NCBI GenBank assembly: GCA_947496235.1
Contig: CANMCE010000001.1
Span: forward strand, 62,001-126,000
Length of the DNA: 64,000 bases
DNA from: an uncultured Glaciecola sp.
GTDB taxonomy: Bacteria; Pseudomonadota; Gammaproteobacteria; Enterobacterales; Alteromonadaceae
Direction of reading: 5' to 3'
Shown: positions 1 through 3,663 of the stretch, in pieces
How positions within the stretch are numbered: the stretch's first letter is position 1
How the letters are laid out: each line of letters begins with the position of its first letter
Position numbers and translations under genes: made by a program
The notes under the pieces: model-generated
Seen by the model: only the letters and a program-made list of their open reading frames with translations
What the model was told of the DNA's origin: nothing
Databases searched by the model: none

Positions 1-1
1 A

Positions 2-343
2 GAAAAATTGTTTAAAGAATATCTGGATAAAATAAATATGACTGATCAAATTAAGCTCTCAAACGAAACGGTAAATCAATTACCAAACAAATTGAAATCA
101 ACATATACATTATGGGCACAAGGTCATGATTTACGATCGCTCATGTCAAAACGCACTTATTATTATCATCGGAAAGAACTTGAAAGCTACGGCATCAATA
201 TCGATCTTGCGCCATGCTCAGAACATCAAAAAGAAAACAACGTGGTACCGATGATCCGCATCCTTGAAGCAACGCCAGCTAATATTCCTCGATGGGCATT
301 TACTAAAAACTTGATCCATTCATCTGCACAACGTTCCGCATAA
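2..343 (+). CDS. Rolling-circle replication protein, C-terminal part (cut by window start)
   Basis: This open frame enters from the left edge and encodes the last 113 residues of the same Rep protein that is complete at 2480-3517; the residues are identical. It contains the conserved C-terminal domain with the segment SLMSKRTYYYHRKEL. The apparent internal start at TTG 8 is not a real start, since the full copy reads through it as leucine 235. It belongs to the preceding tandem unit. It is incomplete only because of the window edge, as far as can be seen. Confidence 0.85.
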   Translation, partial: EKLFKEYLDKINMTDQIKLSNETVNQLPNKLKSTYTLWAQGHDLRSLMSKRTYYYHRKELESYGINIDLAPCSEHQKENNVVPMIRILEATPANIPRWAFTKNLIHSSAQRSA

Positions 344-367
344 CATTAAATGGTTAAAACGTGAGAG

Positions 368-394
368 ACCAGGTACGCGTGAGGCGTGCCTGGT
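368..394 (+). other. Hairpin downstream of rep (copy 1), candidate origin or packaging structure
   Basis: ACCAGGTACGC (368-378) pairs with GCGTGCCTGGT (384-394) around a 5-base loop, with one G-T pair. There is no following T-run, so it is not a typical intrinsic terminator. In filamentous phages the non-coding region after rep carries origin and packaging hairpins; that role here is inference. Confidence 0.5.
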
Positions 395-461
395 ATTGAG
401 CGTTTAATTCATTGATTTAATTAACTTAATTACAGCCCACTATTTATCCACCATTTAATTA

Positions 462-489
462 ATTGCGTATAATGTATATTAATTAGTCT
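462..489 (+). other. Inter-unit dif-like junction (attP-type) with degenerate XerD arm
   Basis: The 28-base site has XerC arm ATTGCGTATAA (462-472), centre TGTATA (473-478) and right arm TTAATTAGTCT (479-489). Arm and centre on the left equal those of the chromosomal dif at 3636-3663, but the right arm diverges from TTATGTTAAAT after three bases. A dif-like site lacking a good XerD arm is the reported layout of TLC-type satellite phage attP. The TTA at 483-485 inside this arm is also the stop codon of the leftward 72-residue gene, so the site and the gene end overlap. Confidence 0.85.
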
Positions 490-701
490 GTATTTGGGGG
501 CAGGTAGTAAGGCGATTTTTTACGTATTTCTACCCCATATTTTTGGGAAAGTTCTTTAGCGTGACGGTAGTAAGTCTCTCGGCTCATTAAAAAATAAGGG
601 TCGAATCCTAGCAACCAAGTGATGTAAGTACCTCGCAATCTGCATGGCATTCTTACTAATAATAATTGTTGCTCAGTATTTAATGTTACGTCTTTTATCA
701 C
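483..701 (-). CDS. Stand-alone homologue of the Rep C-terminal domain (gene X-like)
   Basis: This 72-residue protein aligns by eye over most of its length with residues 245-300 of the Rep encoded at 2480-3517. Shared positions include TY..W..G.D, LMS..TYY.H.KEL and the YG(V/I).I that follows. It is clearly divergent from Rep rather than a recent copy. The start is GTG at 701-699, two bases after the TAG stop of the leftward gene at 704-1567, so the two are probably translationally coupled. In Ff phages the C-terminal third of gene II protein is also made separately as pX, which tunes replication. A similar regulator, or an inhibitor of related elements' Rep, is inference. The stop codon lies within the junction site. 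Confidence 0.75.
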   Translation of the reverse strand: MIKDVTLNTEQQLLLVRMPCRLRGTYITWLLGFDPYFLMSRETYYRHAKELSQKYGVEIRKKSPYYLPPNTD

Positions 702-703
702 AT

Positions 704-1567
704 CTAATAAGGCTCTTGGTATTCTAATTTTTTGTATACAGGAGAGTCATAATCAATGTTTATTATCGTATTATTAGGGGTTAGAAGAAGCAAATAATCT
801 AAATTCAGCTCAGTTACAGTTCCTTTTATCAACTGTCCATTGCTGTCGTAAAACTGTAAATGATCATTTTGTTTAAAGCCGTTCCAGTTACCTTTACGTA
901 AACCATTTAAAGCACTTAGAGTAACTTCTCTATCTTTCCAAGATTGGCGTTCTCTATCGAAACGGCTTAATAATGCACTACCTTTTACAGTTACTGCACT
1001 CTCAATTTTAGTTAATCGACTTGTTATATCATTAATTGCGGAAAGAATAACACTTGAATCGCCTGAAAGTTCCACTTCATTAGATATTTCAGCTGGTTTT
1101 ATAGATAGCATTTTAATCAAGGAATTTACATCCTTACCTTTGTTTTCTACAGTTTCAATTATTGATGAGCTAATTGAAGGTACATCTTTTTTAACCTTAT
1201 CGGCTCTCAAAGATTCATCATAATCATAGGTTCTCATTCCCTGTATATCGAATATCCGATTAGTTTGCTTATCCTTGATTAACACTGTCGGTAAGTTGAA
1301 TGCTTGTCTCACCCCTAATTCATATAGCACATTTGGGTTTTTCCCACTTAAATCACATAAAACCAAATCACTATGATATATTTTATCCATAATATCTATG
1401 ACAATGTAATTTGAAGAAGCTACTTCGTCAGCTCTTACTGGAGTAAACCCAGCCTTGATGCATGCCGGTTTAATTAAGTACTCGTAGACTCTAGTAAAGT
1501 GACCTTCCTCGTAAGGTTCGATATCCGCTATAGGCATAATTACAAAGCACTTTTTTTCATTATCCAT
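704..1567 (-). CDS. TIR-like / nucleoside deoxyribosyltransferase-like protein with unknown C-terminal domain
   Basis: A 287-residue protein. Residues 1-110 form a Rossmann-like domain starting CFVIMPI, followed by VYEYLIKPACIKAGF, a RADE segment, DIMDKIYHSDLVLCDLSG and NPNVLYELGVRQAF. This arrangement is typical of the TIR-like/nucleoside 2-deoxyribosyltransferase-like proteins common in bacterial immune loci. Residues 110-287 match nothing I recognise; the last 70 look like a small beta-rich fold. A ribosome binding site AAGGTGA precedes the ATG. It sits in the cargo position of a dif-integrated satellite element with a coupled Rep-domain gene downstream. An NAD- or nucleotide-consuming antiphage or inter-element competition role is inference; no catalytic residue is assigned. 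Confidence 0.65.
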   Translation of the reverse strand: MDNEKKCFVIMPIADIEPYEEGHFTRVYEYLIKPACIKAGFTPVRADEVASSNYIVIDIMDKIYHSDLVLCDLSGKNPNVLYELGVRQAFNLPTVLIKDKQTNRIFDIQGMRTYDYDESLRADKVKKDVPSISSSIIETVENKGKDVNSLIKMLSIKPAEISNEVELSGDSSVILSAINDITSRLTKIESAVTVKGSALLSRFDRERQSWKDREVTLSALNGLRKGNWNGFKQNDHLQFYDSNGQLIKGTVTELNLDYLLLLTPNNTIINIDYDSPVYKKLEYQEPY

Positions 1568-1785
1568 TTTAAATCACCTTAATAAAAGTAATGCCCGTAG
1601 GGCATGGTAGCGAGGTACGAGCGGTAACCTCTGCGATTAGTAACAAGCAACATCCTTATAATGCGCCAAGTGTTTTTTAAATAACCAATGAATTTGGCTC
1701 GCCTCTTGATTAACCCACAAAAACGAAGTTTTTGTCTTGACTGATAGCGTCATAAATTCTCATGGGTGAGACTTTTACTACCCCG
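1568..1785. other. Non-coding hairpin cluster inside the element
   Basis: No credible gene lies between the TIR-like gene and the repressor gene. The stretch has a perfect stem ATGCCC/GGGCAT (1591-1605, 3-base loop), a second stem GAGGT/ACCTC (1612-1631) and the terminator-like stem at 1717-1735. A cluster of small hairpins in a non-coding part of a rolling-circle element fits a replication origin or complementary-strand origin, but nothing seen proves it. Confidence 0.45.
1717..1735 (-). terminator. Terminator-like hairpin after the repressor gene
   Basis: ACAAAAAC (1717-1724) pairs with GTTTTTGT (1728-1735) around a 3-base loop. Read on the minus strand it follows the repressor gene by about 50 bases. 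The stem itself is A/T rich and there is no long T-run after it, so efficiency is uncertain. Confidence 0.4.
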
Positions 1786-2280
1786 TCACAAATTCCCGTC
1801 AGTGGGAATAGGGGCTAAATCTTCCTCGCAAATATGAAGCTCTACATCGAGTTCTTCCCTTATATTTTTGATGGTATCTAAATCTTCAATAAGAGCATCT
1901 TTGGCATACTGCATTCGCATATATTCATATTCACCTTCAGATTTAGTTTCATACAACGATGGCTCTGGCGTGTCATTATCATTGCAATAGCTATGAATAA
2001 TATTCAATATCACAAAGCGCCTAAGTGGCGTTAAATCAGCGATACGCTTTACAGTTCGTTTTATATATTCTGAAGTCTCAACGGCTTCATCCATGATTAA
2101 TTCATCTGTTGTACAGGACAACGCAATAGCTAATCGTTTAATAGTTTCAAGCTTTGGCTCTGATGCTCCACGTTCAATTCTCGATACTTGTGTTAACTCT
2201 ATTCCGGCTTTCTCAGCAAGGTTGCCTTGCGTCATTCCTTTTTTAGTTCTGATTGCTTTCAAATTGCTACTAATTGACAT
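1786..2280 (-). CDS. XRE-family phage repressor (RstR-like by position)
   Basis: A 164-residue protein with an N-terminal HTH (residues 5-60): LKAIRTKKGMTQGNLAEKAG, then ELTQVSRIERGASEPKLETI. The C-terminal hundred residues are acidic and not recognised, perhaps for oligomerisation. It is transcribed divergently from rep with 199 bases between, the same logic as rstR/rstA in CTX and RS1 phages of Vibrio. It probably represses the rep promoter through the repeated motif at 2296-2385. Homology to RstR itself is not claimed; only the HTH and the position support the role. Confidence 0.8.
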   Translation of the reverse strand: MSISSNLKAIRTKKGMTQGNLAEKAGIELTQVSRIERGASEPKLETIKRLAIALSCTTDELIMDEAVETSEYIKRTVKRIADLTPLRRFVILNIIHSYCNDNDTPEPSLYETKSEGEYEYMRMQYAKDALIEDLDTIKNIREELDVELHICEEDLAPIPTDGNL

Positions 2281-2295
2281 TGCACACCCGTATTT

Positions 2296-2385
2296 TTGGC
2301 TTTATATGACTAGCATACACCCATTTTTTAGCCCTACATGTTTACATGTACTTATAAAGCCAATAAGATTGGCTTTAAATGACTA
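2296..2385 (+). promoter_or_regulatory. Repeated operator-like motifs between repressor and rep
   Basis: TTGGCTTTATATGACTA (2296-2312) recurs as TTGGCTTTAAATGACTA (2369-2385), one mismatch in 17. A third, inverted half copy CTTATAAAGCCAA lies at 2351-2363, facing the second across 5 bases. A TTGACA at 2386-2391 immediately follows and is a plausible -35 for rep, with a weak TATTTG 16 bases further on. These are good candidates for binding sites of the adjacent HTH repressor. No similar repeats were noticed elsewhere in the element. Confidence 0.6.
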
Positions 2386-2416
2386 TTGACAGCTTTTTGG
2401 TGAGCGTTATTTGAAC

Positions 2417-2447
2417 AAAGTCGGGAGTCTAGTAATACCCGACTTTT
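2417..2447 (+). terminator. Terminator-like hairpin in the rep leader (possible attenuator)
   Basis: AAAGTCGGG (2417-2425) pairs with CCCGACTTT (2438-2446), giving a 9-base stem and 12-base loop followed by a short T stretch. It lies after the putative rep promoter and about 33 bases before the rep start. It could terminate or attenuate rep transcription, or be a replication structure. Confidence 0.5.
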
Positions 2448-2479
2448 GTGCCAAATTTGCACTATTTTAGGAACATTCA

Positions 2480-3517
2480 TTGATAGATTGGGCGCGTGTA
2501 CATATCCCTTTTAAACATTCACCTTTAAACGGTGGTGAAGTTGTTTCTATCGATGAGGATGGCGAAGTAGCATGGCGAATACTTAAGCGAAAGCAAGCTA
2601 TCGGTAGCTTTGACAAACGCATTTCATTTAAGAGTATTGGCGGCGACGGGCAGGGTAATGCCACTCATTTATGGATAAGTGGAAACCCTTCTAAATTCTT
2701 GCAAGGTCACAACGTATTTGGCTCGGATGACTTAGTTTCATTGATGTTCGATACATTTAGAGTTATTTGCAATCAATTCAATTTCCAACCGACACTCCAA
2801 GAATACCAAGCGATTAAAAACGGTGATTATGAACTTGGTATAGTTGATATTAATTATTCCTATGAATTACCTAAACGCGCTGACGTTCAAGCGTTTATTC
2901 GAGCCTTAGAATTTAAAGCAAAAACACGTCATGGACGACCATCCATGAAAGGTGGAACTTTATACTTCGGAAAAAATTCAGAACGCTGGGCTATAAAACT
3001 GTATGCTAAAGGAGAAGAATTAAGTACTAAAACAGGCGCTTTACCTGACGCCTTAAAACATCAAGGTATTGAAGATTGGGCTGATAACAAACTACGAATT
3101 GAACTTAGATTATTATCCAAAGAATTGGCGAAATTAGGTATTAAACATGCAGCTACATTGACGCCAGAGCTGACAGAAAAATTGTTTAAAGAATATCTGG
3201 ATAAAATAAATATGACTGATCAAATTAAGCTCTCAAACGAAACGGTAAATCAATTACCAAACAAATTGAAATCAACATATACATTATGGGCACAAGGTCA
3301 TGATTTACGATCGCTCATGTCAAAACGCACTTATTATTATCATCGGAAAGAACTTGAAAGCTACGGCATCAATATCGATCTTGCGCCATGCTCAGAACAT
3401 CAAAAAGAAAACAACGTGGTACCGATGATCCGCATCCTTGAAGCAACGCCAGCTAATATTCCTCGATGGGCATTTACTAAAAACTTGATCCATTCATCTG
3501 CACAACGTTCCGCATAA
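2480..3517 (+). CDS. Rolling-circle replication initiation protein, filamentous phage gene II/X (Rep/Cri) type
   Basis: A 345-residue protein starting at TTG with AGGA 7 bases upstream; this start gives the family's usual MIDW N-terminus. Recognisable blocks are the start MIDWARVHIPFKHSPLNGG, the central GGTLYFGKNSERW followed by KLYAKGEEL (158-182), LRIELRLL (205-212) and the C-terminal domain (246-303) with LMSKRTYYYHRKELESYGI. Family members nick the origin and start plus-strand rolling-circle replication. The tyrosine in KLYAK is a candidate nucleophile, by analogy only. It is divergent from the repressor gene and ends 119 bases before dif. Confidence 0.88.
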   Translation: MIDWARVHIPFKHSPLNGGEVVSIDEDGEVAWRILKRKQAIGSFDKRISFKSIGGDGQGNATHLWISGNPSKFLQGHNVFGSDDLVSLMFDTFRVICNQFNFQPTLQEYQAIKNGDYELGIVDINYSYELPKRADVQAFIRALEFKAKTRHGRPSMKGGTLYFGKNSERWAIKLYAKGEELSTKTGALPDALKHQGIEDWADNKLRIELRLLSKELAKLGIKHAATLTPELTEKLFKEYLDKINMTDQIKLSNETVNQLPNKLKSTYTLWAQGHDLRSLMSKRTYYYHRKELESYGINIDLAPCSEHQKENNVVPMIRILEATPANIPRWAFTKNLIHSSAQRSA

Positions 3518-3655
3518 CATTAAATGGTTAAAACGTGAGAGACCAGGTACGCGTGAGGCGTGCCTGGTATTGAGCGTTTAATTCATTGATTTAATTAACT
3601 TAATTACAGCCCACTATTTATCCACCATTTAATTAATTGCGTATAATGTATATTA
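3175..3655 (+). repeat. Direct repeat copy 2 (end of the complete element unit)
   Basis: Second copy of the 481-base direct repeat, offset 3174 bases from the first. It ends inside the chromosomal dif, where host sequence takes over. Lack of divergence suggests recent integration or amplification, or gene conversion between copies. Confidence 0.97.
3542..3568 (+). other. Hairpin downstream of rep (copy 2)
   Basis: Exact copy of the structure at 368-394, between the rep stop codon and dif. Same considerations: no T-run, possible origin, packaging or mRNA 3' end structure. Confidence 0.5.
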
Positions 3656-3663
3656 TGTTAAAT
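3636..3663 (+). other. dif: Chromosomal dif site (XerC/XerD dimer resolution), right border of the element
   Basis: XerC arm ATTGCGTATAA (3636-3646), centre TGTATA (3647-3652) and XerD arm TTATGTTAAAT (3653-3663). Centre and XerD arm are identical to E. coli dif as I recall it; the XerC arm differs at three positions. The XerD arm and everything to the right are host sequence. This places the window in the replication terminus region and identifies the element as a dif-integrated one. The XerC arm now present may come from the element rather than the original chromosome. Confidence 0.92.

Follow-up and report, generated by a model that had tools for sequence, protein, structure and literature searches.

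A tandem TLCphi-type element at dif of a Glaciecola genome carries a candidate Xer accessory factor beside its hybrid attachment site

The window analysed here is a 64,000-nucleotide stretch of contig 1 of the 4.4-Mb host genome (G000:C1:62001-126000), and its left edge cuts through a tandem array. Positions 1–481 are repeated exactly and directly at 3175–3655, an offset of 3174. The first 461 positions (plus strand) are the 3′ end of a left unit, with the Rep C-terminus at 2–343 and the post-Rep hairpin at 368–394; the left flank completes this unit beyond the window edge, from C1:59288. The two complete 3174-bp units show 0 differences in a pairwise comparison over all positions. From left to right, the sites are a hybrid att at C1:59288, a hybrid att at 462–489 (plus strand) and an intact chromosomal dif at 3636–3663 (plus strand), which forms the right end of the array. 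A scan of both strands gave one att site per unit. Left of the array lies a 92-bp relic of a third unit, which together with its adjoining site matches the unit 3′ end at 96.4% over 112 bp, hairpin covered.

The initial annotation had read the repeat, its offset and the bordering dif-type sites as tandem copies integrated at dif, and had named leftward extension and a search of related dif loci as checks. Both agreed with that reading: the assembly to the left contains the complete second unit (a copy outside the window and not part of that annotation) and the 92-bp relic, and related units were found at dif in other genera. The objection that the repeat might be an assembly artefact fails on the same two grounds. 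The array sits at the only dif of the host, and integration at the chromosomal dif is characteristic of the class to which we assign it below. Exactly one dif match was present in 12 of the 13 genomes of the genus, the remaining one (G005, 93% complete) having zero, and apart from the host, the relic was absent from the stretches fetched from the 11 other dif-bearing genomes. The cumulative GC skew reaches its maximum approximately 16 kb to the right of dif within the 120 kb examined.

Each unit has four genes, with Rep on the plus strand and an XRE repressor, a cargo gene and a small gene designated X72 on the minus strand. Rep (345 aa, 2480–3517) matches PF05144, PF05155 and TIGR01629 and is thereby a member of the phage II/X replication family, which is also found in plasmids. 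The XRE-type repressor (164 aa, 1786–2280) was, like Rep, correctly described in the initial annotation. X72 (72 aa, 483–701), which was missing from its gene list, begins right after the cargo stop, and its 3′ end overlaps the second arm of the att site. Coat, assembly and integrase families were unmatched by all four unit proteins in Pfam, PHROGs and PADLOC (for the XRE protein, the PHROGs result covers the best 25 of 43 matches), consistent with the earlier statement that such genes are lacking; the coat and assembly genes of a complete member of Inoviridae are not recognised in the unit. The cargo gene (287 aa, 704–1567) encodes a protein with a TIR-like N-terminal part, residues 28–129 of which match a PADLOC TIR effector (E 2e-10). 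This agrees with the earlier view that the cargo is foreign to the satellite backbone, and the protein is a putative defence protein, with relatives in 54 records from phages and 83 from plasmids. The cargo varies among units: Alteromonas flava has a DUF4145 protein and one of 298 aa that matches no family, and NORP44 has no cargo between the repressor and X72.

The element very probably replicates as a rolling circle. A candidate rolling-circle origin lies upstream of Rep at 2417–2463 (plus strand), where a hairpin with the loop GTCTAGTAATA is followed by TTTTGT and an inverted repeat. CGACTTTTGT follows the hairpin upstream of Rep in all five elements compared, and the loop is identical in three of them, with Aliagarivorans one base off and NORP44 different. 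The Rep of Lineavirus I2-2 (Inoviridae) is 43.8% identical over its length to the unit Rep; I2-2 is, however, a complete phage of 6744 bases, whereas the unit has neither coat nor assembly gene. Short similarity to the intergenic region of I2-2 (901 bases) was detected in Aliagarivorans (E 4e-4) and A. flava (E 0.007), and was not significant for the window (E 0.33) and two other elements. In the interval between Rep and dif, a strong hairpin is predicted at 3542–3568 (plus strand), a region that folds at a z of −4.87; it is a candidate packaging signal or single-strand origin. Post-Rep hairpins are also predicted in other elements (predictions without controls), and CGTGA in the hairpin loop region is common to the window, A. 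flava B and the element of G067, a genome of the same family, while the stems differ.

These features bear on the question of whether the unit is ever packaged, as the satellite-phage label of the initial annotation would require. The unit could instead be a rolling-circle plasmid of phage ancestry that integrates but never enters a coat, an alternative to which we give somewhat less than an even chance. It would account for the lack of coat and assembly genes and of Zot in the host genome, and plasmid records of approximately 2 kb with related Reps exist in Acinetobacter and Xanthomonas. On the other side stand the candidate phage-type origin, with the short I2-2 similarity in two relatives, and the strong post-Rep hairpins, which leave packaging by a passing helper possible; any transfer would then occur in the coat of that helper. 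A Zot-type ATPase (PF05707) was searched for in 13 genomes and found in five, four times adjoining a Rep of approximately 40% identity (G039, G073, G102 and G120) and once on a separate contig (G055). It was not found in G012, G022, G067, G072, G091, G159, G181 or the host, which is still compatible with a helper that infects.

In the hybrid site, TGCGTATAATGTATATT is retained from the local dif and covers its XerC arm and entire centre, while the XerD arm is replaced by a non-canonical second arm with AGTCTG from position 485. Two reviews, in their available text, define the TLCphi class by the same layout, in which att agrees with dif in its XerC arm and centre and is degenerate in its XerD arm, and describe its integration as begun by XerD without need of FtsK (PMC4246890, PMC5357621). 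The element was assigned to this class on the basis of att layout, and integration by Xer at dif with the TLCphi layout is close to certain. The likeness to RS1 and TLC satellites drawn in the initial annotation therefore holds for TLCphi and not for the CTXphi/RS1 class of IMEX, which was rejected because it requires two inverted dif-like att sites and each unit has one. As described in the same sources, TLCphi of Vibrio cholerae shares with the unit dif integration, the att layout, a replication module of its own and the absence of morphogenesis genes (PMC4246890, PMC5357621). It differs in having a DUF3653-type factor where the unit has X72; the unit measures 3.2 kb and carries a TIR-like cargo. 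The gonococcal genomic island also has an att with the XerC arm, the dif centre and a divergent XerD arm, but it measures 57 kb and is described, in the text available, as FtsK-activated (PMC5357621). Hence an accessory factor is not necessarily required by this layout.

Relatives of the unit were collected by scanning an X72 profile against one genome per species (84,980 species), which yielded 12 loci: A. flava, A. portus, Alteromonas sp. a30, Pseudoalteromonas sp. P1-9, four Marinobacter, Neiella litorisoli, Aliagarivorans taiwanensis and two MAGs. Five of these loci duplicate contigs of genomes in our own set and were counted once. X72 is rare, since it stands alone in 4 of 394 genomes of the order (G000, G091, G159 and G181), the other matches lying inside Reps. 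A. flava has two units (2761 and 3202 bp) and two relics (215 and 295 bp), and single units are present in NORP44 (3135 bp) and Neiella (2372 bp). A PF23343 Rep takes the place of the PF05144 Rep in the 2761-bp unit of A. flava, in Neiella and in A. portus. In three Marinobacter, the element spans 725–726 bp from dif to the hybrid site, X72 is the sole gene recognised, and no Rep was recognised; in the fourth, what was found of the element was limited to the hybrid site and the 3′ part of X72. A single unit with one att makes up the entire Aliagarivorans contig (L096, 1-3169), and because the contig ends do not overlap, a circle and a collapsed array are indistinguishable.

X72 is, by profile comparison, a free-standing Rep C-terminal domain. 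Its comparison with that domain gave 98.4% (E 5e-15), and each of the 12 X72 proteins scanned, from 11 genomes, matched PF05155 at E ≤ 1, with a best value of 1.6e-6; the window X72 gave E 0.026, under the Pfam cut-off. Fold searches with X72 returned no match. Comparison with seven proteins of DUF3653, to which we take the TLCphi factor XafT to belong, gave 0.2% (hhalign, shallow alignments), i.e., no profile similarity. A PF12375 match, looked for as the sign of a TLCphi-type XafT, was absent from the host genome.

An intact hybrid site, defined by ≤1 mismatch in a 17-base core, lies 2–111 nt past the X72 3′ end in 8 of 12 loci and, with the window included, in 9 of 13 genomes. A. portus and one MAG have divergent site candidates, with 4 and 6 mismatches respectively, the P1-9 contig ends at the position of the site, and a30 has X72 but lacks such a hybrid site. 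Of the 18 intact core sites present in these 12 loci, 7 are dif, 9 adjoin X72 and 2 adjoin an X72 relic. This linkage is only partly unbiased, as the loci were selected through X72; an att-first search with the exact pattern found 2 of 394 genomes, both of them X72 carriers. AGTCTG forms the second arm in 9 of the 12 readable genomes, and in five of them (NORP44, one MAG and three Marinobacter) it lies 30–111 nt past the X72 stop. A different sequence stands in one Marinobacter (GGTCTG) and in Neiella (GGTTCG), and a30 is the third exception.

X72 accompanies Reps of two families, PF05144 or PF23343. The window X72 shares 88.5% identity with the copy in A. portus, which has a PF23343 Rep, and 69% and 38% with the copies in NORP44 and Aliagarivorans, both with PF05144 Reps; the Aliagarivorans X72 is 66% identical to that of Neiella (PF23343 Rep). 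By these identities, X72 similarity is independent of Rep class, and Rep has been exchanged among X72 elements. In a 48-codon core of X72, all six pairs of the four Marinobacter copies (which are non-independent) show 0 nonsynonymous and 2–8 synonymous differences, and the non-coding parts of the three short elements are 72–78% identical. These counts indicate purifying selection on X72 in Marinobacter elements without a recognised Rep, and hence a role independent of an adjacent Rep gene.

Help to Xer is the simplest role for X72, because a DNA-binding domain would be fixed next to an att that lacks a XerD arm, and we put the chance that X72 is a Xer factor at close to even. It is rather unlikely that X72 is instead a replication regulator that modulates Rep at the origin, its proximity to att being mere conserved gene order. 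The gene X protein of Ff phages is a model for such a regulator. As the nearest homologue of X72 is a domain of Rep, and PF05155 matches throughout, binding at the origin is as natural a guess. This alternative is weakened by the occurrence of X72 with PF23343 Reps of another family, by the selection that maintains it in Marinobacter where no Rep is recognised, and by the sister element of G067, which has a 61%-identical Rep and no X72. The last point was counted in favour of a function at dif, since the sister element occupies a non-dif site. That the array is an inert relic is very improbable: relics do exist, namely the 92-bp piece at this array, two in A. flava (215 and 295 bp) and the rep fragments at dif in G012 and G072, but the two copies have 0 differences in 3174 bp and their four reading frames and both sites are intact.

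Overall, we consider it fairly probable that the array is a dif-integrating tandem element that replicates as a rolling circle and whose X72 aids Xer. The 3.17-kb integrative element would use the XerC and XerD of the host at dif, and would replicate from its filamentous-phage-type Rep under control of the XRE repressor. The att of the circle would retain the XerC arm and the whole dif centre with no recognisable XerD arm; as that arm and the entire centre are retained, both strand exchanges should be possible and the reaction reversible. Each integration would leave an intact dif on the right, and repeated integration would build the array. X72 would most likely bind the conserved arm AGTCTG and recruit or activate XerD there, the part that XafT plays in TLCphi.

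The element is thus best described as a variant of the known TLCphi-type kind with a credible new accessory factor. Elements with a XerD-less att must make XerD act, and XafT, cited in PMC9765430, is the one encoded factor known. XafT resembles X72 in being a small element-encoded protein with the role proposed for X72 at a XerD-less att (PMC9765430); it differs in profile, and X72 originates from a Rep domain. If the proposal is true, X72 solves this problem in a second, unrelated way, and the Marinobacter forms of 725 bp are a very small natural integration cassette. A wider reading, which we hold only tentatively, is that X72 is a second, independently evolved Xer factor derived from the DNA-binding tail of an initiator, that X72 and the att arm form a portable cassette for integration at dif that also exists alone as a 725-bp selfish element, and that the X72-less sister element uses an undescribed single-recombinase dimer resolution at the terminus in Alteromonadaceae without XerCD/dif. 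The gonococcal island, in which this att layout works with FtsK, makes this reading less likely.

The sister element in G067 (91% complete, 300 contigs) contains the Rep, a repressor and small genes; X72 was not found in the element, nor dif in the genome. Direct repeats of 22 bases, spaced 2796 bases apart, flank it (L028, G067:C181, 7110-11361). The repeat at the Rep 3′ end runs on into a palindrome (CTATGTCCGATACT, four bases, AGTATTGGAC), and the other repeat comprises a single arm plus the centre, with a degenerate arm beyond. As judged from these arms, the site follows the hybrid logic and orientation of the dif elements at another target. Adjoining the palindrome is a gene for a 434-aa tyrosine recombinase (PF00589), whose best NCBIfam match is XerC, far below the cut-off. 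At E ≤ 1e-60, 42 of the 97 genomes of the family have such a recombinase of approximately 430 aa. Among 16 recombinase loci fetched (L119–L134), a two-arm site (≤6/32 mismatches) was found in 14, upstream of the gene in 12 and downstream in 2; the other two have a one-arm site, one of them at a contig start. In 14 chosen places (L150–L163, with G018 a repeat), 10 showed an upstream palindrome with 11-base arms and ≤1 mismatch, a count without a shuffle control, 2 had weaker palindromes and 2 had none. Both arms had changed together in several of these places.

Canonical dif, at ≤2 mismatches, was absent from all 10 recombinase genomes examined. XerD scored above the NCBIfam cut-off in 0 of these 10 versus 3 of 3 controls in a search for XerD only; sub-threshold matches exist, the best with 215 bits (G052). 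The recombinase lies at 0.486–0.502 of the contig in seven of nine near-complete genomes, those whose contig start bears DnaA motifs, and at 0.746 and 0.979 in the other two, which lack such motifs at the start. Placed at the terminus, the recombinase and palindrome look like an undescribed single-recombinase dimer-resolution system, and the sister element would thus point to possible dimer resolution in Alteromonadaceae without dif. LME-1 and XerL of Legionellales are a precedent for a mobile element revealing single-recombinase dimer resolution (PMC9765430), which the G067 element may parallel, although the order and the site are different. A 2009 survey, in its available text, placed Colwellia psychrerythraea among the bacteria without dif/Xer and asked for the replacement (PMC2731167); no paper naming one was found in a search of mainly openly readable literature. 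The question now has a candidate gene and site, and our guess is that the genomes with the recombinase include Colwellia.

Several further loci were observed beside dif or X72. Decayed Rep fragments adjoin dif in G012 (L034, 7478-8306) and G072 (L035, 7818-8541) as relics of related elements. In G039 (L032, 2608-9896), an inovirus with Zot lies next to dif with another hybrid site and, among the reading frames tested, no separate X72. In Alteromonas sp. a30 (L095, 5995-6621), the site that follows an X72 relative mirrors the usual hybrid, its XerD arm being good and its XerC arm poor, and a PF05840 Rep lies in the vicinity. In four genomes from other families (L079, L080, L081 and L083), DUF3653 proteins occur no more than approximately 400 bp from dif, with no second hybrid site within approximately 8–10 kb of the DUF3653 loci (L111–L114), and these dif-linked proteins are possibly domesticated. 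Finally, in the inovirus record Dulem virus 58 (PP511691.1, 1313-1480, minus strand), a hypothetical protein encoded separately from the Rep gene includes an X72-like stretch.
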